Assembly: GCA_013152835.1 (NCBI GenBank)
Contig: JAADFQ010000074.1
Coordinates: 1-34,763, forward strand
DNA from: FCB group bacterium
GTDB lineage: Bacteria; Fidelibacterota; Marinisomatia; Marinisomatales; J089
Length of the DNA: 34,763 bases
Direction: 5' to 3'
The notes beneath the pieces were generated by a model. That model was not told the origin of the DNA and did no database searches. It saw nothing but the letters and a program-made list of their open reading frames with translations. A program made the translations under genes and the position numbers. Shown piece after piece: positions 1 through 13,154 of the stretch (position 1 is the first letter of the stretch; each line of letters begins with the position of its first letter).

Positions 1-125
1 CACGGGAAAATCCCGTGGTACCTAGCAAAGCACGCCCATAAGGGCGACATCCCGATCCCGGGATGATAGAAAAGGATTCATCCACCCCGATAGCTATCGG
101 GGTGGTTTTCTCCATATCGGGATAA
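1..125. repeat. Multi-hairpin dispersed repeat (family E2), copy 1
   Basis: Consecutive palindromes CACGGGA..TCCCGTG, CGCCC..GGGCG, CATCCCG..CGGGATG, CCACCCCGATAGCTATCGGGGTGG; shared text with copies at ~7930-8070 and ~9411-9497. Confidence 0.8.
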
Positions 126-126
126 A

Positions 127-999
127 ATGAAAAAGGCAATCTACTATAGCGTTTTTGTGTTCATAAATGTTAACATATCAATAGCTGCTGATTACTTCCC
201 ATTTAAACTCGGAAACTCGTGGCAGTACCATCAGTATCGGAGTTATTCCGACACAACTATTACTTCTGATACAACTATTCATGAATTTTCCATTGTCGCT
301 GAGTATACAGAATATGGTGAACTATATTTTGAAATCAATAATCTTCCTGGTCAAGATGGTATTGGTACTCTAATTCTGAGAAAGGATACCTTAACCGGTG
401 AGTTATTTACCGAAAATGAATGTTTGTGGTTAAATCCACAGATAGAAATTGGTGATACCGTTTTAAATTCTTCTTGTACTTTTATTTCTCATTTTTTAAC
501 CGGTATTGATTCTTTGAATCATTTTACTTTGTATAGAGAAACACACTTTTACCAGCAAAACTCATTGCAAGGGGTACATATTGATTATCAACTATTTGAA
601 GGAATCGGACCAATTCGCATAGAACTTCATAACACACTTACAACATATACCTTGATATCAGAATTAGTGGCAGCAGAGATTGATGGCATTACATATGGTG
701 AATTCGTTGATATCGATAATGAAATCACAATCCCTAGTACTTTTAAACTTTACCCGACCTATCCTAATCCCTTTAATCCCGTAACTACAATAAGATTCTA
801 TATTGCCAACACCGAAAAAGTATCTCTCAAAATATATGATGTCAGCGGTAGACACATTTTAACTATTTTTGAAGATATCGTTGATCCAAACAACTATGCA
901 ATTCAATGGGATGCTACCGGTTTATCAAGTGGTATATACTTCCTACAACTAATAGCAGGTTCAAAGGTTGATAATCAAAAATTAATATTGTTAAAATAA
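127..999 (+). CDS. Exported protein with T9SS-type (Por) C-terminal sorting domain
   Basis: Signal-like N-terminus; C-terminal YPNPFNPVTTIRFYI...KIYDVSGR...GLSSGIYFLQL...KLILLK. Confidence 0.8.
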   Translation: MKKAIYYSVFVFINVNISIAADYFPFKLGNSWQYHQYRSYSDTTITSDTTIHEFSIVAEYTEYGELYFEINNLPGQDGIGTLILRKDTLTGELFTENECLWLNPQIEIGDTVLNSSCTFISHFLTGIDSLNHFTLYRETHFYQQNSLQGVHIDYQLFEGIGPIRIELHNTLTTYTLISELVAAEIDGITYGEFVDIDNEITIPSTFKLYPTYPNPFNPVTTIRFYIANTEKVSLKIYDVSGRHILTIFEDIVDPNNYAIQWDATGLSSGIYFLQLIAGSKVDNQKLILLK

Positions 1000-1022
1000 T
1001 ATTAGCCTAAAAATGCAAAATA

Positions 1023-1227
1023 TACCTAACAATACGCTGCACTGGTCCTCGATTAAATCTGGTGGGCTGGCCAGCCTACGCCAGGGCTTCGGCTGGTAGG
1101 CGGCATCCTACTACGCTGAAGTTTCGTAGGACAGGTGAAAATGAGGATTTACTAATAATGAAATTCAAACCAGGTAAAATGTTAATCGGTAATAACCCAC
1201 GCGCCGGTTACTTTTCCCGCTAAAGGG
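1023..1227 (+). repeat. attC-like recombination site (a)
   Basis: Left arm ACCTAACAATACGCTGCACTGG; right arm CGCGCCGGTTACTTTTCCCGCTAAAGGG (degenerate); contains conserved interior E1. Confidence 0.65.
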
Positions 1228-1233
1228 CAATAA

Positions 1234-1830
1234 ATGAAAAGTCAAATAAAAATCATTACTGTCCCCGTATATTACTTCTTGTTTATGTCCTGTATATCGG
1301 CACAAAAATATTATCTTGAAACATTGAACGGTGAGCAATTCGAAAACTTAACCTATAGCTCTAAAACCGACACAACTATAAAATTCAAACGTGTCAACGG
1401 CACAATGGGACAACAAGGAAAAATATCCTATACCACGGATTATCACACTATCCATATCAATGATCTGAAAGTTATCAGTAAACATAATAATACGTTTTCC
1501 AAGTTTGGTTTACAGCCTGCAAAATTTAGTATTATTAGGGGACTGGCAGGTGCCACCGCCGGAGGCTATTGCGGGACTTTAATTGGTACGGGTATAGGAT
1601 ACCTGGCATTGAGATTATTTACGGAGGATGAGAGCTTCTCTGAATTCAATATGTTCTATTGGTTGGGAGGTGCTACTGTAGGATTGGTAACCGGTTCCGT
1701 ATGGAATCTGATATACTTCTCAAAACATAAAATCGGTTTTGAAACCGAATCATATGATTTGACCAATAAATCATTTGACGAAAAGAAGTTAATCGTGTCG
1801 TTGCTGGTTGAACAGAATGAGACTCCATAA
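1234..1830 (+). CDS. Hypothetical exported/membrane protein with glycine-rich TM segments
   Basis: N-terminal hydrophobic signal; GLAGATAGGYCGTLIGTGIGYLAL segment; follows attC-like site. Confidence 0.6.
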   Translation: MKSQIKIITVPVYYFLFMSCISAQKYYLETLNGEQFENLTYSSKTDTTIKFKRVNGTMGQQGKISYTTDYHTIHINDLKVISKHNNTFSKFGLQPAKFSIIRGLAGATAGGYCGTLIGTGIGYLALRLFTEDESFSEFNMFYWLGGATVGLVTGSVWNLIYFSKHKIGFETESYDLTNKSFDEKKLIVSLLVEQNETP

Positions 1831-2092
1831 GCTCTACATCATATCATTGATCATCATGATTTGTGGGTGTGAGGATAATGAAAAAGCGGAATATGAAAAT
1901 GATGATACAAGGTATCTTAACATCTTGATGACCCAGGAAGTAGATTCCACAACAATTGATACATTGTTCACCACAGTTTTAACAATAAAACGCATCACGC
2001 GCGAAAACTTTTCAAGGGCTTGCTACCAGAATCCTTTCGAAGATAACTGCTTTTACCCTCTTACAGTACATCAACAAATTCATCAACAATAG
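1808..2092 (+). CDS. Small putative lipoprotein
   Basis: MRLHKLYIISLIIMICGCEDN lipobox-like; overlaps preceding ORF by 23 nt. Confidence 0.55.
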   Translation: MNRMRLHKLYIISLIIMICGCEDNEKAEYENDDTRYLNILMTQEVDSTTIDTLFTTVLTIKRITRENFSRACYQNPFEDNCFYPLTVHQQIHQQ

Positions 2093-2158
2093 GCCACTGA
2101 ACCATGTTAAAAATGCGCTCATTTAATTTGCACAACGGGTAAATATTTTAGAAACAAG

Positions 2159-2806
2159 ATGGAAACAAGAAAGATGAAGTTTATTATTTTAGTAATAACC
2201 GGATTAATTTTATTCTCCTGTCAAAAGGAACAGCCACTTGCCCCATACAATGAAAATTATGAATTCCCGATGACGATAGGTTCACAGTGGAAATACAATG
2301 TAACCGACACTACATACTACACTAATTTTGATGATAGTATCGTAGTAAATAATGGCATATTGGAAATAATAGTCATAAAAAGCACGTCCCTGGACAATGG
2401 TAAGAAAGCATTTCTTTGGCAATACAAATTTAAAAATAGCATTTTGGATACATTGTATATTTCATCTTCAAATGATACGGTATTTTTTTACAATGATAAA
2501 AATGTTCTTTCAACAAATAAAATTTTTATATTCCCTTTACAAGTAAACAACGAATGGCAATTTGACCCCTGCAATGAGTACAGAGTAGTTAGACAAGATA
2601 CTCTGAATTTATCTTTTGGTACGATTAAAGGTATTTATAATGTTGAGCATAAATTTATTTGTGAAGGTGAAGCAGGGTTAGTAGATAACTATTATATTAA
2701 ATCATCAATTGGTATAGTTAAGTATGAATTTCATTACATGAACATCCATTATGGAATGATGCAAAATAAAAATTGGATTTTAAAATCATACTCAATAGGT
2801 GAATAG
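2159..2806 (+). CDS. Putative lipoprotein
   Basis: MKFIILVITGLILFSCQKEQP lipobox; probable start at internal Met (2174). Confidence 0.65.
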   Translation: METRKMKFIILVITGLILFSCQKEQPLAPYNENYEFPMTIGSQWKYNVTDTTYYTNFDDSIVVNNGILEIIVIKSTSLDNGKKAFLWQYKFKNSILDTLYISSSNDTVFFYNDKNVLSTNKIFIFPLQVNNEWQFDPCNEYRVVRQDTLNLSFGTIKGIYNVEHKFICEGEAGLVDNYYIKSSIGIVKYEFHYMNIHYGMMQNKNWILKSYSIGE

Positions 2807-2811
2807 CCTTG

Positions 2812-2943
2812 GTATAACCCTTGCTGGAGGTGACGTGAATATCTTTGGTGTGAATTTAAGGTTTCGGGGTTCAGCGGATGCAAATCAACAGAGGGAACGT
2901 CGTGTTGTCATCATTTTCACGCACCTCAGCACATCGCTAGGCA
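2812..2943 (+). repeat. Degenerate attC-like site (b)
   Basis: Left arm ATAACCCTTGCTGGAGGTGACG pairs with right arm CGCACCTCAGCACATCGCTAGGC (GCTG[G]AGGTG[A]CG vs GCTGAGGTGCG). Confidence 0.45.
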
Positions 2944-2947
2944 ATAC

Positions 2948-3655
2948 ATGAAATTAAATAGTATAATATTAGGTATTGTTTGTATTACAGTTATTAAAGC
3001 AAATGATAATGTGGATTATTTATTAGAACCAATTATTGAATTCTCCAAGATCATTGCCGAGGAACCAGAACCTATTTTGTACCAATACAAAGACGAAAAT
3101 CATCCATATTTTACTCAAAACAATATTGTAAATAAATACGGTTTGCGTGCAACAATGAGAATAGATGGAAAAATAAGGAATATTATTTCATTAAAGGTTA
3201 GTACTAGTTATTATTCTCCACTAGTTAATAATGATAGCTCTATCCAATTAAAAAACTATGCATTCAACCAAAATGATATCGGTCTTTCAACTGGATTTGA
3301 ATATCCATTAGGAAATGTGTTTTTATCTTTTATCAGTGTGAATGGTATTAAGAGTAAAATTGAATTAATTGAAACTAGGACATATTACCTAAGTCCACAT
3401 GGTTACAATGAAGAGATAACTAAAAAAGTCAGAACAAAAATTGACAAATATTTCTTTAATTTAGAAATGGGCTTCAAATATATTTTTCATAAGAAAGTTG
3501 AACTTCAGATTGGAGTTCAATACTATTTAAACCCATTTAATCACGATATTGTATATGCATTAAGTGATCCTGAAACAGAAAATCCATTTGTTGTTTATTC
3601 TCATGTTTCGCAAAACAAATTTATACAATTTATAGGTTGTAGTTTTGTTTTCTAA
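2948..3655 (+). CDS. Hypothetical exported, beta-barrel-like protein
   Basis: Signal-like N-terminus; alternating aromatic/hydrophobic strands, C-terminal aromatic residue (FIGCSFVF). Confidence 0.5.
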   Translation: MKLNSIILGIVCITVIKANDNVDYLLEPIIEFSKIIAEEPEPILYQYKDENHPYFTQNNIVNKYGLRATMRIDGKIRNIISLKVSTSYYSPLVNNDSSIQLKNYAFNQNDIGLSTGFEYPLGNVFLSFISVNGIKSKIELIETRTYYLSPHGYNEEITKKVRTKIDKYFFNLEMGFKYIFHKKVELQIGVQYYLNPFNHDIVYALSDPETENPFVVYSHVSQNKFIQFIGCSFVF

Positions 3656-3660
3656 ATATT

Positions 3661-3823
3661 GCCTAACATTGCGCTGCACCGGACACGAAACGCTGGCCAG
3701 CCTACGCCAAGGCTTTGGCTGTCAGGTGGCATCAAACTTGAGTTTGGAGGTAAAATGAAGTCAAAACCCGTCAAAATGTTAATTGGTAAAATCCCACACA
3801 CCGGTGAGCTCTCCTGTTAGGTC
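3661..3823 (+). repeat. attC-like recombination site (c), best preserved
   Basis: GCCTAACATTGCGCTGCACCGG ... CCGGTGAGCTCTCCTGTTAGGT; arms pair as CCTAAC / GCT[G]CACCGG with one extrahelical G. Confidence 0.8.
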
Positions 3824-3824
3824 T

Positions 3825-5072
3825 ATGTTAATGGAAGGTTTATATTCACTGAATAAACCAATTTATGCATCCCTTGCGATAGTGTTCATCATAGGTTGTA
3901 TCGAGGAAGTCGATAACTCAATCATTGATGAAAATTTTGATGATACTACGGCAGTCGATGATACAACGTTACATAACCTTTCACCCTCTACCTTTGCTTG
4001 GTTAGATGTGAATGATATCTCAATTCAGGTCGATACCGCAGGCCAACTTCGAGAAGGTATTCTACGGGGAGCAAATGGTGCTACAATAGCCTATCATACT
4101 TATTTTTCCGGTTTATGGGTCGGTCACGACGATCCTTATAGCCCGTCAGCGAATATTACCTGGGTAGGGACGAGACAAAAGAGCAATTATACCAGTCATT
4201 GGCCGGATGGAAGATTTGGGGTGTATCGCATTGTTCCCGCTTATATTAATCCAGATTCTGTTTATTGGCCAATCGACAAGGGATTTCCTGTAACGCAAAA
4301 TGGAGGTCCTTTTTTAATTGGAGATTTAATGCTATGGTCGGCACTGAAAGCCGATACGCTGGTGGAAACCAGCATTCTGGCCTCTCCCATCCCAAATATG
4401 ACCTATACACAGACCGTATGGGCATATGAACGTGATGATCTTCGGAGCACTATATTTATAAGTTATACCCTTCGAAACACGGCAGATACCGATATTAACG
4501 GGATTCGCATTGGATTTTATTCTGATACAGATTTATCTTTTTCCGGTGGTTCGTCAGGCAGCAATTCTACTGGGTATGATTCATCGCAAGCACTTACCTA
4601 TACGTATATTCCGTCCGACACGGGCAGTACTTTTGTCTGTGGGTTTACATTTCTTGAAGTGAATGGAATTACGGACCCCGGACAATTGGTCACTAGCCAT
4701 CGTATCATGCGAAAGAACAACTACATCGATTCTGATTTTGGAGAGTATGGCTTTGATTCCCCTGAACAGATCCTCTTTGCCCTAAAAGGATTATCCAATA
4801 CGGGTCAGCCTATGATTGATCCCACAACCGGTGAGCCAACACTCTTTGCATTTTCCGGTGATCCGGTTGCCGGTACGGGATGGTTGGATGTACAGGTTGA
4901 CGTCCGAAGTTTACTCAACGGTCCAGAACTATCACTTGTCGCCCATGGCCAAGTCAGAGCAACACTTGTATTTACAATAACAATGGGGACCGATTTGAGA
5001 ATAGCTTTAATAAATTTAAAACGTACAATTAATGATATTCGTAATGAGCCCGATCTCTGGATTTTTTATTAA
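3825..5072 (+). CDS. Large putative lipoprotein of unknown function
   Basis: Internal Met start gives MLMEGLYSLNKPIYASLAIVFIIGCIEEVD; the track start (3783) lies inside the attC-like site. Confidence 0.6.
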   Translation: MLMEGLYSLNKPIYASLAIVFIIGCIEEVDNSIIDENFDDTTAVDDTTLHNLSPSTFAWLDVNDISIQVDTAGQLREGILRGANGATIAYHTYFSGLWVGHDDPYSPSANITWVGTRQKSNYTSHWPDGRFGVYRIVPAYINPDSVYWPIDKGFPVTQNGGPFLIGDLMLWSALKADTLVETSILASPIPNMTYTQTVWAYERDDLRSTIFISYTLRNTADTDINGIRIGFYSDTDLSFSGGSSGSNSTGYDSSQALTYTYIPSDTGSTFVCGFTFLEVNGITDPGQLVTSHRIMRKNNYIDSDFGEYGFDSPEQILFALKGLSNTGQPMIDPTTGEPTLFAFSGDPVAGTGWLDVQVDVRSLLNGPELSLVAHGQVRATLVFTITMGTDLRIALINLKRTINDIRNEPDLWIFY

Positions 5073-5082
5073 ATGCGTACTA

Positions 5083-5275
5083 GACCTACCCCCCGTTCAG
5101 CCGGATGTGAAACGTTTACCACACTACGCCAAGGCTTCGCGTGGCAGGCGGCATCCTACTACGCTGAAGCTTCGTAGGACAGGTGAAAATGAGGATTTAC
5201 TAATAATGAAATTCAAACCAGGCAAAATGTTAATCGGCAGAAACCCGCGCGCCGGTAAACTGTGCCGTTAGGGGT
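5083..5275 (+). repeat. attC-like recombination site (d)
   Basis: GACCTACCCCCCGTTCAGCCGG ... CGCCGGTAAACTGTGCCGTTAGGGG; E1 interior. Confidence 0.65.
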
Positions 5276-5281
5276 TAGTTA

Positions 5282-6202
5282 ATGAATCTGAAAGATATCA
5301 ATTACAATTGGAACTTATTTGGATTTTTACAGGGACCAGGTTACTTCTTTATTTGCGGAAGATATTGGTTAGGTATTTTGTTGTTAACTATTGTCCTATT
5401 ATTAACAGTTCTTTTTCAACAAATATGGTATGTGTTTGCTTTACTTGTGTCGCTAGGATGCGGATTTACCGTAGATCATTTTTGTGAGGAATCTCTTAAT
5501 AAAAAGAGAGCCAAATTAAGAGAAAAACTAATCAAAAAAGGATTTAAAGATTATGACCTGAGACGTGAAATAAGGCGAAGAGAAAGTGGCGGTTTTTCTA
5601 ATTTCTTAAAAATGTGTCTTGTATTGATACTATACTGGGGTTCATATTTTATTATTTTACTTATTATTACAGGTTTTAGACAAATTCCACGCGCAATAGA
5701 AAATAGAGTACCTACTATGGAGGAAATGGTTTCAAGGTTAGAGAAGGCTAACACAATTAAAGAAGAGGATTATATTTATAAATCTAAATATGGTTTTGAA
5801 ATCTATGTACCCAAAGACTTGAAATATCTTGAATTGAATAGAAACATTGCTTTATTTGCTGCAATAGAAAGGAATGAGCAATTCCTGTTTATTTCTGTGT
5901 CCGTTAACGATATTGTCCCACTGGATGAAATACGAAAAGCGATGAATATCGAAAAAAACAACTCATTGGCAAATTATGAAAAATTTGAAATATTAGAATT
6001 ATCTGAAAATGATTTAGAAAATGTCTATGTTACTTATAGGATGAAAGATAATAACTACTTTAGTTCAAGAGGATTTTATCTATTTATTAATAGTAAAGAA
6101 AATTCATATAAGTTTGAATTTTCGACAAATTATCCACCTATTGATCATTTCATTAATATGGAAGAGAAAATTCTAAACTCAATCAAAATAACAAACCCCT
6201 AA
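5282..6202 (+). CDS. Hypothetical membrane protein
   Basis: Several hydrophobic segments (YWLGILLLTIVLLLTVLFQQIWYVFALLVSLGCGF; MCLVLILYWGSYFIILLIITGF). Confidence 0.6.
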   Translation: MNLKDINYNWNLFGFLQGPGYFFICGRYWLGILLLTIVLLLTVLFQQIWYVFALLVSLGCGFTVDHFCEESLNKKRAKLREKLIKKGFKDYDLRREIRRRESGGFSNFLKMCLVLILYWGSYFIILLIITGFRQIPRAIENRVPTMEEMVSRLEKANTIKEEDYIYKSKYGFEIYVPKDLKYLELNRNIALFAAIERNEQFLFISVSVNDIVPLDEIRKAMNIEKNNSLANYEKFEILELSENDLENVYVTYRMKDNNYFSSRGFYLFINSKENSYKFEFSTNYPPIDHFINMEEKILNSIKITNP

Positions 6203-6408
6203 CATGCACTATACCGGACACCGATTAAATCGGGGCAAGCTGTGAGGGGCTGGCCAGCCTACGCCAGGGCTTCGCGTGGCAGGCGGCATCCTACTACACT
6301 GAAGCTTCGTAGGACAGGTGAAAATGAGGATTTACTAATAATGAAATTCAAACCAGGAAAAATGTTAATTGGAAGAAACCCACGCGCTGGTGAGATTAGC
6401 CGTTGGGC
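6196..6408 (+). repeat. attC-like recombination site (e)
   Basis: CCCCTAACATGCACTATACCGG ... CGCGCTGGTGAGATTAGCCGTTGGGC; E1 interior. Confidence 0.65.
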
Positions 6409-6448
6409 GGCGTCACCATTAATCTCAAGCCACTAGAGTAAGCACCTC

Positions 6449-6982
6449 ATGTTAATCGATCAGTTCTTGCCACACTACGATGTAAACGCACGGCACCAAA
6501 TCGACATTCGTGCACCTATCGGGAGAGCGTATTCGGTCACACGCTTTCTAGACATGCGCGATTCCCGGATAGTCCGTTGGCTTTACTCTTTGCGCGGCCT
6601 CCCAGAATACAACCTGACCCTTGATGGCATGTTGAAATGGGGGTTTGTTCTCCTCGCGGATAAACCCTCGCAAGAAATTGTCTTTGGGTTGATCGGTCGC
6701 TTCTGGACTCCTTCTGCCCAGATTCAGTCTATCAACGCCGATGCTTTTGTCAAGTTCGACCGGCCAGGCTTTGCCAAAGCGGCCGGGAACATGACATTCA
6801 TTCCTCAGGATGATGGAAGTGTTCGCGTCACGACGGAGACGCGGGTGCATTGCCTGGATAATACAAGCCGACGCCATTTTCGGCTGTATTGGCTGCTTAT
6901 TGGTCCATTCAGCAGCATAATCCGTAAGGAGTGGCTCCGGCTAATCAAACAGCGAGCAGAAGCGCAGCCTTCCCATGTGTGA
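6449..6982 (+). CDS. SRPBCC-like family protein
   Basis: IDIRAPIGRAYSVTRFLD...LRGLPEYN...IVFGLIGRFW...GFAKAAGNM...TTETRVHCLD...RRHFRLYWLLIGPFSSIIRKEWLRLIKQRAE pattern; GC-rich relative to neighbours. Confidence 0.55.
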   Translation: MLIDQFLPHYDVNARHQIDIRAPIGRAYSVTRFLDMRDSRIVRWLYSLRGLPEYNLTLDGMLKWGFVLLADKPSQEIVFGLIGRFWTPSAQIQSINADAFVKFDRPGFAKAAGNMTFIPQDDGSVRVTTETRVHCLDNTSRRHFRLYWLLIGPFSSIIRKEWLRLIKQRAEAQPSHV

Positions 6983-7024
6983 GAGGACGTATGTGAAAAA
7001 AGCGCTTCAAAAGATGCATGCACT

Positions 7025-7152
7025 GCCCAACCAACGCTGCACCTTACCTGCGACTCCGCCGCGGTGGGTAACGCGGGCCTCGCAAGCCAAGTCTGGAGTG
7101 GGCAAATACTCTGAGCAAACATGCCGTAGGCAGGTGAGTTAACCGTTAGAGG
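7025..7152 (+). repeat. attC-like recombination site (f)
   Basis: GCCCAACCAACGCTGCACCT ... AGGTGAGTTAACCGTTAGAGGTC; CT[G]CACCT/AGGTGAG pairing; different interior from E1. Confidence 0.65.
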
Positions 7153-7160
7153 TCTATTCG

Positions 7161-7676
7161 ATGAAAAGAGCAAAAATGAATACTTTTAATGGAATTATTC
7201 TGCTATTCTCATTAACAATAATCTCAAGTTGTACTGATCAAAAAGATGATTCATTTACTATTGTATACTCAGGCGGGGGCTTTACTGGCGGAATCAATCC
7301 CACCTTTACCGAAACTATTATTAGTAATAGTGGTAAGGTGGTAATAAATACTACATCTTTATATACCGATGATGTAACACAGGTTAGATACACAAATGAA
7401 AGGGAGGTTAATAACCTGTACCAATATATAATGGATAATGGATTTATGGATCTAAATGATGTATATGACTGTGCTGACAATGATTCAATATGTGTGGATT
7501 TGAAAATTGATTATCCTCCGGCCAATCCATTAACAATCACACTAGATGAAAATGATATTACACATTCAGTAACAGTATCTGTTTATAACTGTACTGAATC
7601 GCCCATCATCGATTATCCGGCAATATTAGATTCAATAGTAAATAAAATAAGTGAGACTATTGCCAGTAGTGAGTGA
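7161..7676 (+). CDS. Putative lipoprotein
   Basis: GIILLFSLTIISSCTDQ lipobox; probable start at internal Met (7176). Confidence 0.6.
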   Translation: MKRAKMNTFNGIILLFSLTIISSCTDQKDDSFTIVYSGGGFTGGINPTFTETIISNSGKVVINTTSLYTDDVTQVRYTNEREVNNLYQYIMDNGFMDLNDVYDCADNDSICVDLKIDYPPANPLTITLDENDITHSVTVSVYNCTESPIIDYPAILDSIVNKISETIASSE

Positions 7677-7694
7677 ATTATCAAAGAGGTGACC

Positions 7695-7843
7695 CTCCTT
7701 ACATGCGCTGTACCGGACCCCGTAAATGCGGGGGACTGTCCGGCGCTATGAAGCGTTAATCTACGCCTGACAAGTGGTTTTGAAGTTTGGAACGGAAAAT
7801 TCAATGAAAACGGTAAGTCACACACGCCGGCTGGCACCCAAAG
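7695..7843 (+). repeat. Degenerate attC-like site (g)
   Basis: CCTTACATGCGCTGTACCGGACCCCG ... CACGCCGGCTGGCACCCAAAG. Confidence 0.45.
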
Positions 7844-7847
7844 AAAA

Positions 7848-8136
7848 CGTATAACAATGCACCGGACCCCGGGTAAATTGGGGACGGTTGTGATGGACTG
7901 GTAACGTGAATTTAACGTTTTGGAGATGGAGCCCTACAGGAAAATTCCGCGATACCTGACAAAGTACGCCCATAAAGACGACATCCCCCCGATTAATCAG
8001 GGGGATGATCGAAAAGGATTCATTCACAACAATAACTATCGGGGTGGTTTTCTCCACATCGGGATAAATTGAGTGTAATTTTTCTAACAGAAGTTTTGAA
8101 GGTAAAATGCATCACGCCGGTAAGTTCTGTAGGTGT
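7848..8136 (+). repeat. attC-like site (h) with E2 repeat in the interior
   Basis: TATAACAATGCACCGGACCCCG ... CACGCCGGTAAGTTCTGTAGGTGT; E2 copy lies between the arms. Confidence 0.45.
7930..8070. repeat. E2 multi-hairpin repeat, copy 2
   Basis: ACAGGAAAATTCCGCGATACCTGACAAAGTACGCCCATAAAGACGACATCCC...GGATGATCGAAAAGGATTCATTCACAAC..CTATCGGGGTGGTTTTCTCCACATCGGGATAAA. Confidence 0.75.
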
Positions 8137-8181
8137 GTAAAAATGCGACCAAAATATTGAATATCACCAAGGATACACGTA

Positions 8182-9183
8182 TTGAAAATCGAAATAGTAA
8201 CGACACAAAATGAGGACATGAAGGAAACCGGATTTGGAACTCTCAAGGCTTGCAATAGTGTATTTGATTCTATCGAAAGGATAGGGTATGATGTTAAATT
8301 AAACATATGCAAGTCTAAACGAGACCTGGAGGGTATTGTCAAGAGAAATCCGGATTTGGTTGTTTTAGCTGTAAAATATATTCCACTTCAAAATAGAAAT
8401 AGTATTTGGCTGAGTGAATATTTTTCCAAGCATGGAATTAATTTCACCGGCTCATCAAGAGATGTGTTGAGGTTTGATTCCAATAAAACTAGTGCGAAAT
8501 TATATTTAGCAAATAAAGGTATTAAAACTGCCAGATATTTTACGGCAATTCCCGATCAGTACCGATATGCAAGTGAACTTCCGATTAAATTCCCGTTATT
8601 TTTAAAACCGACAGATGCGGCAAACGGAAATGGAATTGATGATTTCTCTTTCGTGACAAATTTTTCGGGGTTTGAAAGTAAAGTATTGTCGTTATATAGC
8701 ACATTTAGTGCTCCTGCTTTGGTCGAAGAATATTTGGATGGGCGTGAGTTTACCGTCTCGGTAATAAATACACCAAACAACGAACTAATAATATCGCCTA
8801 TCGAAATTCTCCCGCCAGAATCAAAATATGGACTTAGAATTCTAGGGAAAAAGGTAAAAAATGATGATTCGGAAGAGCTGAAATTAGTTGAAGATGGTGG
8901 AATGAAACACGAAGTGATAAAACTTGCTATAAATTCGTTCCTGACTTTAGGTGTGAGGGACTTTGGTAGAATAGATATTAAGGCTAATAAAGCAGGCGAT
9001 TGTTTTTTTATTGAAGCCAATTTGGTTCCAGGTATGACATATGGCTCTAGCTATTTTCCTAAATCCTGTGAAATTGAGAATGCACTAACTTATGACGAAG
9101 TCATCCAGCTGATGTTGGAAAATGGGCTTTGTAGAGCTAAACCAAAAGCACCGCCTGACAATTGCATAAACGCAGATTGTTGA
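8182..9183 (+). CDS. ATP-grasp family protein (D-Ala-D-Ala ligase-like)
   Basis: FPLFLKPTDAANGNGIDD, VEEYLDGREFTVSVI, FGRIDIKA...CFFIEANLVPGMT motifs. Confidence 0.75.
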   Translation: MKIEIVTTQNEDMKETGFGTLKACNSVFDSIERIGYDVKLNICKSKRDLEGIVKRNPDLVVLAVKYIPLQNRNSIWLSEYFSKHGINFTGSSRDVLRFDSNKTSAKLYLANKGIKTARYFTAIPDQYRYASELPIKFPLFLKPTDAANGNGIDDFSFVTNFSGFESKVLSLYSTFSAPALVEEYLDGREFTVSVINTPNNELIISPIEILPPESKYGLRILGKKVKNDDSEELKLVEDGGMKHEVIKLAINSFLTLGVRDFGRIDIKANKAGDCFFIEANLVPGMTYGSSYFPKSCEIENALTYDEVIQLMLENGLCRAKPKAPPDNCINADC

Positions 9184-9410
9184 AAAGTTGTGCCGTAAAA
9201 CCAAGTAATAAGGTTCGGAGTAAAAAACTCTTTTAAAGGTGTTGCATGGACTGTGCATCCTAATAATCCGAGCGGTGTTAAATCGAGCCCCACGCGTGCG
9301 TACCAAAACACACTTCGTCGTGCAGACCCGCCGGCTCCCCTGCCGGCCACTCACGGAGTGAGGCTGGCTGGCGAAGAATGAAGGTGTGTCCACCGAAGCT
9401 TTAGCGCAGG

Positions 9411-9497
9411 ATAGCGACATCCCGATCCCAGGATGATTGAAAAGGATTCATCCACCCTCGATATTCATCGGGGTGGTTTTCTCCATATCGGGATAAA
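9411..9497. repeat. E2 multi-hairpin repeat, copy 3 (3' part)
   Basis: GCGACATCCCGATCCCAGGATGATTGAAAAGGATTCATCCACCCTCGATATTCATCGGGGTGGTTTTCTCCATATCGGGATAAA. Confidence 0.75.
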
Positions 9498-9532
9498 CAT
9501 TCTGATCCGCTCAACGGAGGGCCGGTATTGAT

Positions 9533-9690
9533 TCAGTTGATACCATAATGATGTGTAAAAACCGTCGTAATTGTTCCGGAATGAAAACACTTTCCGGTCG
9601 GAATGCCATCGGCATTCATGATACACACTAGATGTTTATCCTTGGCCGGATCAATTCCGATGACTATTTTTCCACGAATAAATTCACGCT
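9533..9690 (-). pseudogene. IS110-family (DEDD) transposase N-terminal remnant
   Basis: Minus-strand translation REFIRGKIVIGIDPAKDKHLVCIMNADGIPTGKCFHSGTITTVFTHHYGIN*; GIDPAKxKH N-terminal motif; truncated. Confidence 0.6.
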
Positions 9691-9884
9691 TATCCGCGCT
9701 TATCCGCTAATGACCGTAAACCTATCTTCATGTTTGTCCCGCTTGGCTGGTTCAGGATTTTTTACTACAAAACATTACCATTGTTTTGCCTGCCCGCCAA
9801 AGTCCGGACCTAGGCCGGTCTCTCGGCAACGAGGAACATAGATATCGTTAGATTTTAATAAAAAACCAAAGACAAGGAAATATC

Positions 9885-11156
9885 ATGAATAAAAAGAATG
9901 TCGTTGCCTTAGTATTAACTGTATTCTTTTTTGGTTTTATCAAAGGTCAATCCGTAGATACATTAGATTTGAATTGGGAGCCGTCTGTTCATTTTGGGAC
10001 ATATGGTCAACGAACGGTAGTGGTCAATGATACGTTATGGCATTTTGGTGGGCTTTTACGGTATGGAATACCGTTTGGGTATGACTATGAAGATTACTCA
10101 TTTATGGAATATAAGGCCCCTGATAACGGTTATTGGAGAGTTGATACTACAAAAATCATCTTTAGAAGATATTTTAATGCGGAAAGCTACAATGGGAAAA
10201 TTTATATTTTCGGTGGTATTGGCTCTGAACAATACACACAATATTTAGTCGAAGATGTTGAGATTTTTGATCCGTCTACCGGTACGATTACTTACGGCAC
10301 ACCGCTTCCATATCCAAGACGAGCGGGAGGATCTGCAGTGTATAATGGAAAAATATATCTGGTAGGAGGAGAATCAAGTACCGGGTATTCAGATCGATTA
10401 GATATTTATGACATAAATACCAACACCTGGACATCCGGTGCATCCTTGCCGATAGCTACTGAGACTGAAGCCGTTTATTATGATGGGAAAATTTATGTAA
10501 TAGGTGGATATGATGGTGGTGTTCATGATGAGGTATTTGAGTATGATATCAATGCGGATACATGGACTCAAATCGGTGTAGCTCCAAGTTCAGTAAGTGC
10601 TCATAAAATGGCTGCGTATAATGGTCTCATTTTTGTTATTGGTGATTACGGTGTACTTGACAGGCTTTGGGTTTATAATATTGCTGATGGTAGTTGGACC
10701 GAATATTCATCAAATATCATCGGGCGAAGACACACATCATTGGCCATATCCGGCGATAAGCTATACATTATTGCCGGTAACTCCAAACTCGATGGCGTTT
10801 ACCAATACTATCGGGTAGTCCAAAGTATTGATTTATCACCTTTTCTTAGCGTGTCCGGACAATCTGATTTTCTACCAAAAGCATTTGAGTTGGATCAAAA
10901 TTATCCCAATCCATTTAACCCTGTGACCAACATAGATTTTACTTTACATCAAGATGGGGATGTAAAATTAAAAGTATACGATCTCCTTGGGAAACAAGTT
11001 CAAGAATTATATAATGGATTTAAAAAATCCGGTTCACATACAATCCAATGGAATGGCAAAACTCAAAATGGAGAATTTGCGTCAAGTGGAGAGTATATTG
11101 TTGTTATTGAAATGAATGGCAATATTTTAACAAAGAAAATGATTCTCATTAAGTAG
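9885..11156 (+). CDS. Secreted kelch-repeat protein with T9SS-type C-terminal domain
   Basis: Repeated YNGKIYLVGG / YDGKIYVIGGYDGG / ISGDKLYIIAG kelch motifs; C-terminal LDQNYPNPFNPVTNIDF...KKMILIK. Confidence 0.85.
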   Translation: MNKKNVVALVLTVFFFGFIKGQSVDTLDLNWEPSVHFGTYGQRTVVVNDTLWHFGGLLRYGIPFGYDYEDYSFMEYKAPDNGYWRVDTTKIIFRRYFNAESYNGKIYIFGGIGSEQYTQYLVEDVEIFDPSTGTITYGTPLPYPRRAGGSAVYNGKIYLVGGESSTGYSDRLDIYDINTNTWTSGASLPIATETEAVYYDGKIYVIGGYDGGVHDEVFEYDINADTWTQIGVAPSSVSAHKMAAYNGLIFVIGDYGVLDRLWVYNIADGSWTEYSSNIIGRRHTSLAISGDKLYIIAGNSKLDGVYQYYRVVQSIDLSPFLSVSGQSDFLPKAFELDQNYPNPFNPVTNIDFTLHQDGDVKLKVYDLLGKQVQELYNGFKKSGSHTIQWNGKTQNGEFASSGEYIVVIEMNGNILTKKMILIK

Positions 11157-11174
11157 GCAAATAATTCAATAAAA

Positions 11175-11197
11175 CCAACATTGCGCTACACCGGAGG
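11175..11197 (+). repeat. Left half of an attC-like site (i)
   Basis: CCAACATTGCGCTACACCGGAGG; no right arm before the next CDS. Confidence 0.5.
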
Positions 11198-11203
11198 TTT
11201 GCA

Positions 11204-11923
11204 ATGACTTCAGATATAAGGAACTCAGGACTTATTGGAGGCTCGCCGCTCGTTCATGCGCGGGTCGCCGGGCTCGTCGGCGTGGTCATGCTCGCGAGCG
11301 GATCATTTGCGAACGTCGTTGCATCGCGTCTTGTTGTGCGCGGCGATATTATCACGACGTCGAACAACATCGCGGCATCTGAATTTCTGTATCGCCTCGA
11401 AATCGTCAGTGGTCTGGTCATGATGGTCGTCTGGTTATATTATGCGATGCTACTTTACCGGCTCCTGGGACCTGTCGACAGGAATCGTGCGAAAATCATG
11501 CTCGGGCTCGTCATGGCATCGGTCCCCATCTACATGCTCAATCAAGTCAATCAGTTTGCCGTCTTGCTGTCGGCATCGGACCAGCTGCACGAACAGGTCG
11601 GGTTGTTTCTAAACCTGAGTCGATTCGGAAGCCTCATCGCCGGAATATTTTTCGGTCTGTGGTTATTTCCTCTGGGGTTCCTGGTCTTCAAGTCCGGCTT
11701 CCTCCCCCGGTTTCTAGGCGCCTTGCTGATGTTCGGAGGTCTTGGATATCTGGTGCTCTTCGTACAGGCGTTTCTGTTTGCGCAGTCAGGGCAGACGCTA
11801 TGGAATAACCCCTTCCTCGTGGTTACCCATATATCGGAATTGGCGCTGCTGCTCTGGCTTCTAATTAAGGGCGTGAATGTCGATGAATGGAAAAAGCGAA
11901 CTCATGAGCTCACGACGCCGTGA
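11204..11923 (+). CDS. DUF4386-like multipass membrane protein
   Basis: ARVAGLVGVVMLASGSFANVVASRLVVRGD...RLEIVSGLVMMVVWLYYAMLLYRLLGPVDR; GC-rich. Confidence 0.7.
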   Translation: MTSDIRNSGLIGGSPLVHARVAGLVGVVMLASGSFANVVASRLVVRGDIITTSNNIAASEFLYRLEIVSGLVMMVVWLYYAMLLYRLLGPVDRNRAKIMLGLVMASVPIYMLNQVNQFAVLLSASDQLHEQVGLFLNLSRFGSLIAGIFFGLWLFPLGFLVFKSGFLPRFLGALLMFGGLGYLVLFVQAFLFAQSGQTLWNNPFLVVTHISELALLLWLLIKGVNVDEWKKRTHELTTP

Positions 11924-12002
11924 ATTCCGGATGGAAAACGAAGTCTTCAGGATTTATTGCAAAAGAGACTATTACACAAATAATGTTTTCCCATAAATGT
12001 CG

Positions 12003-12090
12003 TCCAACCATGCGCCACACCAACCGACTACGGCAAGGCTTCGTCGATCGGGAAGTTTCGGGAGCAGACGGCACGAACATGAATTTGGAG
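12003..12090 (+). repeat. Decayed attC-like left arm and interior (j)
   Basis: GTCCAACCATGCGCCACACCAACCGACTACGGCAAGGCTTCG...; right arm not found. Confidence 0.35.
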
Positions 12091-12145
12091 CGAAAATTTA
12101 TTACCATCTGGATAGAATGGTAGTAAGCAAACCGTTCCGCTTCTT

Positions 12146-12222
12146 TTTCAGGGGGATTCCCGTGGTGCCACACTCATGAGGGCAGCACACCGATCCCGGT
12201 ATGATTCCTTATCAGGATAATA
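12146..12222. repeat. Degenerate E2 repeat, copy 4
   Basis: GGGGGATTCCCGTGGTGCCACACTCATGAGGGCAGCACACCGATCCCGGTATGATTCCTTATCAGGATAAT resembles the E2 order of segments. Confidence 0.45.
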
Positions 12223-13154
12223 TGACTCTACGAAAATCATTTCTATCGGAGAGAATCTGGCCGGTTGTACGGGTCCTGATTCTACAACTTGTTTTACTGG
12301 CAGGTATTCTGGGAAACATCGTCGGTTGGCTTGCGCTTGTATTCCTGGTCGATGTTCTGCACTGGCTGGACATCGATTTTCACGGAAAAACGCTAAGCAC
12401 AATCAGCCCGGAAGGGAAAATCGTCGGTATCATTATTTTGTTAAGCGTCAATCTCGTCCTCATTCTGTCGGCATGGCGCTGGCTGGAGCGAAAACGACTG
12501 CCGGATATGTGGTTAGTGTTTTCCCGAAAGCAAGGGAAATACCTGGCCGGCGGACTGGCGGTGGGTTTGGGTGAAATGCTGGTGGTGTTTGGCAGTATGG
12601 TTGCCGTCGGCGTGATCCAGCCGTCGTGGGGACTGGCGCGGGTGCCTGCCGGTACGGTTCTGATGGCCCTGGGATGGTTGTTCGCCTCCTCTGTTCTGGG
12701 ACCGATTGTGGAAGAAGTTTTGAATCGTGGCTATTGGTTTCAGAATATCAAACAGGGCTGGGGTGTCGCTCCGGCAATCATTGTCACCGCATTGCTGTTC
12801 GGCGGAATGCATCTGTTCAATCCGAATGCCGAATTATTGGGGGCGATTAACATTATGCTCTCGGCTGTTACCTATGCATTGAGCCTGGTATGGTTACGCT
12901 CGCTCTGGTTTCCCATCGGCTGGCACGCCGGTTGGAACTTCGCCCAGTTCTTTATCGCCGGTCTGCCGAACTCCGGTATTTCAGTCACCGGTATGGGCTT
13001 GGAAGGCACGACCCTGTTGGTGTCGAAATCGTCCGGCTCCCACTGGATAAGCGGCGGTGAATTCGGTATGGAGGCAAGCCTGGTCAGAACGGGTGTGCTG
13101 ATTGTGGCCATCATTGTATTGCTATGGTTGAAGAAAAACCGGCCCGTTCAATAA
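12222..13154 (+). CDS. CPBP-family intramembrane metalloprotease
   Basis: VEEVLNRGYWFQ (EExxxR), LLFGGMHLFNP, FPIGWHAGWNF motifs; start reassigned from 12201 to ATG at 12222, after the E2-like sequence. Confidence 0.8.
   Translation: MTLRKSFLSERIWPVVRVLILQLVLLAGILGNIVGWLALVFLVDVLHWLDIDFHGKTLSTISPEGKIVGIIILLSVNLVLILSAWRWLERKRLPDMWLVFSRKQGKYLAGGLAVGLGEMLVVFGSMVAVGVIQPSWGLARVPAGTVLMALGWLFASSVLGPIVEEVLNRGYWFQNIKQGWGVAPAIIVTALLFGGMHLFNPNAELLGAINIMLSAVTYALSLVWLRSLWFPIGWHAGWNFAQFFIAGLPNSGISVTGMGLEGTTLLVSKSSGSHWISGGEFGMEASLVRTGVLIVAIIVLLWLKKNRPVQ

Follow-up and report, generated by a model that had tools for sequence, protein, structure and literature searches.

A cassette array at the edge of the contig

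The stretch of DNA analysed here (hereafter the window) comprises 34,763 nucleotides and is the entire contig C74 (JAADFQ010000074.1, forward strand) of a draft genome of an FCB group bacterium, an assembly of 2.61 Mb in 257 contigs that is 87.7% complete. At positions 1–12,300 it carries an array of six complete sites resembling attC, the site type of integron cassette arrays, together with four degenerate or half sites, all placed between genes of the same strand. The complete sites span 1023–7151 and are separated by gaps of 0.6–1.6 kb. The array begins at the contig edge, window position 1 being contig position 1. Apparently real genes between 127 and 14,909 are all on the + strand and are mutually unrelated, save that two carry type IX secretion tails. 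This bears out an earlier reading of the letters (the original prediction), in which single + strand genes of unrelated sequence alternate with the sites. It counted at least six to eight sites; of those listed below six are complete, and four (g, h, i and j) are degenerate or half sites.

1023–1219, + strand: attC-like site a, 197 nt; R' degraded to CGCTAAAGG; inner repeat common to sites d and e
2812–2942, + strand: attC-like site b, 131 nt; L'' GCTGGAGGTG, L' CACCTCAGC; 9/9 pairs; one extrahelical base
3661–3822, + strand: attC-like site c, 162 nt; canonical GCCTAAC-5 nt-GCT[G]CACCGG ... CCGGTGAGC-6 nt-GTTAGGT
5084–5273, + strand: attC-like site d, 190 nt; L boxes GTTCAGCCGG/CCGGTAAAC
6197–6408, + strand: attC-like site e, 212 nt; L arm partly degraded
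7025–7151, + strand: attC-like site f; GCCCAAC-GCTGCACC ... AGGTGAG-GTTAGAG, read from sequence
7690–7840, + strand: degenerate attC-like site g
7846–8138, + strand: degenerate attC-like site h; its loop holds a dispersed terminator-bearing repeat
11172–11195, + strand: half site i, 5' arm only; its CCGGAGG resembles the ribosome-binding site of the next gene
12001–12025, + strand: half site j, 5' arm only, weak; read from sequence

The window cytochrome b is 85% identical to that of Candidatus Neomarinimicrobiota J089 and about 66–73% identical to those of other members. The host is a member of the Neomarinimicrobiota, which replaces the Bacteroidetes/Calditrichota-style background proposed at first.

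Architecture of the attC-like sites

The attC plan (paired R and L boxes, an extrahelical base in L'' and an unpaired spacer) is complete in sites b, c and d and partial in a, e and f. Its perfection declines through d, e, f and a, and it is degraded in g–j. The CCTAAC and GTTAGG ends that had been read as the mark of all sites are exact in c only, and those of the other complete sites are varied. Site c folds as described originally, with CCTAAC paired to GTTAGG and GCT[G]CACCGG to CCGGTGAGC, leaving one extra base and an unpaired spacer. When the bottom strands of b and c were folded, the L arms of both paired, and in c the R arms as well; each kept an unpaired spacer and, following the third L pair, one extra base. 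Site b has an L box, GCT[G]GAGGTG/CACCTCAGC, that differs from that of site c yet is equally complementary.

Sites a, d and e have 167 nt in common at 83–87% identity. Palindromic elements (CCTACGCC..GGTAGGCGG and TCCTACTACGCTGAAGCTTCGTAGGA) occupy the attC loops at window positions 1058–1140, 3679–3740, 5101–5185 and 6236–6320. Sites with such loop palindromes reach 160–217 nt; sites C87 and C138_17, on other contigs, are devoid of them. The default size limit for attC in site finders is ~200 nt, and some of the palindrome-lengthened sites exceed it. A second dispersed repeat of ~70–130 nt with a strong terminator-like hairpin (CCACCCCGATAGCTATCGGGGTGG-TTTTCTCC) is present at 1–130, 7936–8072, 9401–9501 and, in part, 12151–12205; one of its copies falls within degenerate site h.

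Evidence for a sedentary chromosomal integron

Motif counts place the sites well outside chance. The consensus 5' end YAACAWTGCGCTGCACCGG, allowing up to three mismatches, occurs three times in the window against 0.01 expected, and the consensus 3' end occurs three times against none in 100 shuffles. Genome-wide, the 5' end gave 11 matches and its reversed pattern 0, and a 32-nt stretch from the 3' half of the site gave 10 matches versus 0. The L arms covary: among 11 sites from four genomes, 8.6 of 9 positions pair with the site's own partner arm as opposed to 6.2 of 9 when partners are swapped. The same site family recurs on contigs C71, C87, C138, C144 and C236 of the host genome. No such sites were found in plasmids or viral contigs. 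Contigs C71 and C236 terminate within a site, and breakage of draft assemblies by repeated attC sites has been described (PMC9024848).

Relatives supply the integrase context. A genome of the same genus encodes an intact IntI, the integron-type tyrosine recombinase, scoring 414 bits (cut-off 265), and across the phylum 42 of 245 genomes have IntI above the cut-off, against none of 14 controls. Genomes G034, G003 and G023 show the usual integron layout, with attC sites on the strand opposite to intI and upstream of it, and in G229 a five-site array adjoins intI. The L'' box of site b, GCTGGAGGTG, is found again beside intI in G003. Several IntI genes per genome were seen in G003 (six), G016, G108, G109 and G229, which suggests either that one chromosome has multiple integrons or that binning has mixed genomes.

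Some observations weigh against an integron. Several sites are degraded, and a, d, e and h are long. Neither intI nor attI was found beside the array, and no intI is present on the window contig. The total fold energy is ordinary (z −1.7 for c and −1.5 for b), which leaves box architecture, covariation, homology and context to carry the case. A box scanner used alone at a loose threshold returned 10 hits against 5.1 in shuffles, which is weak by itself; because of this excess of chance hits, motif counts, covariation and homology were used in its place. An Rfam scan of the window gave no match at the attC-like sites.

Taken together, the array is very probably part of a sedentary chromosomal integron, that is, an attC cassette array, of the Neomarinimicrobiota host. 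The integron-type reading of the original prediction stands on the structure of the sites, the covariation of their L boxes, the same-family sites elsewhere in the genome, the intact IntI within the genus and the occurrence in relatives of the same type of site next to intI, on its array side. Directly observed are the architecture and covariation of the sites, the layout of the array, and relatives with intact IntI and adjacent sites. Judged from sequence, the sites would be substrates of that IntI lineage and would undergo recombination. Each gene with the site behind it would be a mobile cassette, now or formerly; IntI would recognise the folded bottom strand of the site and cut in the R' box, and cassettes would thereby be excised, shuffled or inserted.

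Variable gene content

The genes of the array and its surroundings are as follows.

127–999, + strand: gene for a secreted protein with a type IX secretion sorting tail
1234–1830, + strand: cassette gene, no family
2159–2806, + strand: cassette gene, no family; lipoprotein-like N-terminus
2948–3655, + strand: cassette gene, weak outer-membrane beta-barrel match
3834–5072, + strand: cassette gene, 412 aa or slightly longer, no family
5282–6202, + strand: cassette gene, membrane protein, no family above cut-off
6449–6982, + strand: cassette gene, no family
7161–7676, + strand: cassette gene, no family; lipoprotein-like N-terminus
8182–9183, + strand: gene with a D-Ala-D-Ala ligase (ATP-grasp) domain; TTG start
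9885–11156, + strand: Kelch-repeat protein with a type IX secretion tail
11204–11923, + strand: DUF4386 membrane protein

The locus is variable, as its cassettes are not conserved between relatives, whether at cytochrome-b loci or in the same-genus genome. Gene order is not a fixed feature of the locus: the counterpart in the close relative J089 has the conserved respiratory genes followed by ffh, rpsP, rimM, trmD and rplS in place of the array (gene names taken from translations). Among 80 cytochrome-b loci, the only array products with a relative were the type IX secretion-tail and Kelch proteins, which have a tail domain in common, apart from one weak short-chain dehydrogenase/reductase match. 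The 412-aa cassette product had no match in the same-genus genome, and relatives show only about 26–33% identity over long stretches.

The ATP-grasp gene at 8182–9183 scores 63.7 bits in Pfam and falls far under the NCBIfam cut-offs for true D-Ala ligases. A defence role for the cassette products was considered and dropped, since PADLOC returned no match among them. On contig C71 (L057, 5462–6073), a cassette gene between two attC sites is weakly similar to family 4 uracil-DNA glycosylase.

Fate of the integrase

A genome-wide search for recombinases in the host identified two Xer-type proteins and one C-terminal fragment of IntI. The fragment, of about 46 residues, lies on contig C206 (L062) at 178–321 on the − strand and scores 78 bits with the TIGR02249 integron-integrase model over 46 positions, compared with 49 bits for XerD. 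No match to the remainder of IntI was found beside it on C206. Its neighbours are RidA-like and DAHP-synthase-like genes, and 178 nt separate it from a contig end. In a test for an empty site left by a lost intI, the gene next to intI in G001 had no clear ortholog in the host genome.

The host integrase either has been lost, leaving the C-terminal remnant, or was missed by the assembly, so the array formally resembles a cluster of attC sites lacking an integron-integrase (CALIN). Loss in the host lineage, with the array now a decaying CALIN, has about an even chance. The degraded sites a, e and g–j, including several half sites, point that way, as does an orphaned remnant in an otherwise fairly complete assembly; however, the remnant may stem from a second, unrelated integron copy, as the six IntI genes of G003 illustrate, and contig edges leave space for an intact gene.

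Somewhat below even is the probability that a complete integron was split by assembly, with intI and attI lying in an unassembled or unbinned gap and hence no CALIN at all. The start of the window at contig position 1, the termination of C71 and C236 within attC sites, the fragmented and incomplete genome, and the intact IntI in the same genus are consistent with such a split. The genome-wide search, however, gave only XerC/XerD-like proteins and the truncated remnant, which favours real decay. With the window at a contig edge, array contigs ending inside sites and the genome 87.7% complete, CALIN status is not proven; the orphan cassette array put forward originally holds as an integron-type array, and its lack of an integrase cannot be concluded. 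It is very improbable that the sites are ordinary dispersed palindromic (repetitive extragenic palindrome-like) elements between unrelated genes with no role in recombination: hairpin repeats do occur within a, c, d and e, and parts of them outside the sites, but the R and L boxes flank these hairpins, covary, keep the extrahelical base at a fixed position and adjoin intI in relatives.

A possible leader frame inside the sites

Five of the sites in the array contain a short open reading frame (ORF) in the loop and 3' arm.

1158–1223, + strand: short frame in site a, MKFKPGKMLIGNNPRAGYFSR and stop
2878–2940, + strand: short frame in site b, MQINRGNVVLSSFSRTSAHR and stop; stop in the R' box; not above chance alone
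3755–3820, + strand: short frame in site c, MKSKPVKMLIGKIPHTGELSC and stop; GGAGG upstream; TAG stop in the R' box
5206–5271, + strand: short frame in site d, MKFKPGKMLIGRNPRAGKLCR and stop; TAG stop in the R' box
6341–6436, + strand: short frame in site e, MKFKPGKMLIGRNPRAGEISRWAASPLISSH and stop; ends 12 nt before the next start codon

Sites a, c, d and e, like those on C71, C87, C138 (two) and C236, have in their 3' half the coding sequence for a common peptide, MK.KP.KMLIGRNPRAG.LCR. The leader ATG is preceded by a Shine-Dalgarno-like GGAGG, GGAG or GAGGA, and the combination of ATG, Shine-Dalgarno-like motif and a frame open to R' is found in a, c, d, e and most family relatives. The stop is the TAG at R' box positions 3–5 in c, d and one C138 site. 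Elsewhere the leader stops a few nucleotides past the position of the R' TAG or continues into the next cassette; in the C71 site a TGA stands shortly before R'.

Within this family, the ratio of nonsynonymous to synonymous substitution (dN/dS) is 0.40 in the leader frame, versus 1.19 and 0.84 in the other frames. Column permutation gave a dN/dS as low in 58 of 2000 cases and a stop-free frame in 136 of 2000. An unrelated attC family, that of G229, has the frame open in each of its 16 copies, with an identically placed ATG, the other frames being stopped in about half; 18 of 2000 permutations were stop-free. The dN/dS of that leader frame is about 1 and the peptide is hence not conserved, so that peptide conservation fails as a proof of function there; the pattern fits a leader whose translation, rather than its product, matters. 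In G003 and G016 the leader frame is less regular, with two copies register-shifted and one lacking a start. Shuffling the loops of 20 attC sites placed six at p<0.1 (binomial p 0.011, Fisher p 0.04), and no value below 0.1 was obtained for the short sites or for those of G034, G108 and G053. Because the tests were devised after the pattern was noticed, and because a family's copies lack independence, support for the leader frame is moderate.

Overlap of stop and start codons (ATGA and TAATG in G229) was considered as proof of coupling and rejected because the three frames are nearly equal (17, 13 and 15 of ~30 within 15 nt). The distance from leader stop to next start likewise showed no clear difference from the other two frames. 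A separate attC family, AGT.AACC.G/CCGGTTACT, is present in three genomes (L156 19510–19641, L166 15375–15507 and L061 16023–16184) and has a common reading (F/L)TPVT(F/Y) through L', in a register unlike that of the main family.

We tentatively propose, at a probability somewhat under even, that many Neomarinimicrobiota attC sites may be dual-purpose, serving as a recombination hairpin and as a leader ORF with its own ribosome-binding site that aids translation of the next cassette by reinitiation. The frame would enter the next cassette often in one register (CGT, then TAG), and its translation would open the attC hairpin in the mRNA, allowing the next gene to be translated by reinitiation. 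Each cassette would thereby supply a translation starter, like ORF-11 of class 1 integrons, to whichever cassette lands behind it.

Relation to known systems

The array resembles CALIN and sedentary integrons, as defined with IntegronFinder (PMC9024848), in its clustered attC sites, which lie less than 4 kb from one another, its mostly unknown genes and their single orientation. Likeness among the attC sites of one genome is a mark of sedentary integrons (PMC8618304), and the window sites likewise resemble each other within the genome. Unlike known examples, some sites here measure 190–290 nt owing to repeats within the variable terminal structure. The attC hairpin has three features, namely extrahelical bases, an unpaired central spacer and a variable terminal structure, and the identity of the first extrahelical base is reported to be non-essential (PMC2727003). 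The sites follow the R''-spacer-L''-variable terminal structure-L'-spacer-R' plan of the VCR sites (Vibrio cholerae repeats) of the Vibrio cholerae superintegron (PMC2727003), and match them in the large branched terminal structure, the extrahelical base of the L'' arm and the C before the GTT of R'. They differ from VCR sites in having a single clear extrahelical base, after the third L pair, whose bottom-strand letter in site c is C.

The leader frame recalls ORF-11 of attI1 in class 1 integrons, described in review as a short frame that has a Shine-Dalgarno motif and extends across the point of recombination (Hanau-Bercot 2002, reviewed in PMC8876359). By the same account, ORF-11 takes its TAG stop from positions 3–5 of the GTTRRRY of the next cassette (PMC8876359). 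The frame here shares the Shine-Dalgarno-like motif and, often, a TAG stop from the R' box. Unlike ORF-11, it lies within attC sites, is found in several of their families and is present many times per genome. Short ORFs in attC were proposed as a way past the stem-loop barrier by Jacquier et al., as cited in section 3.2 of PMC8876359, and by analogy their termination-reinitiation mechanism through attC would apply directly here. That proposal concerns mobile class 1 cassettes, whereas here sedentary attC sites have the frame as a trait common to a family.

A 2021 list of integron phyla does not contain Neomarinimicrobiota (PMC8618304). A non-exhaustive literature search found no integron report for Neomarinimicrobiota, with Marinimicrobia appearing in integron papers just as passing co-occurrence. 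The cassette array is genuine and ordinary in kind, and lies in a phylum for which no earlier report was found. Integrons are the chief machinery known by which genes are stockpiled and shuffled, and the presence of IntI in 42 of 245 phylum genomes widens the known cassette reservoir to a lineage that is uncultured and largely marine. Leader frames, should they prove real, would have a bearing on the translation of cassettes that lack promoters, are often poor in Shine-Dalgarno motifs and lie deep in long sedentary arrays, and a device for passing attC hairpins would travel with the recombination site itself.

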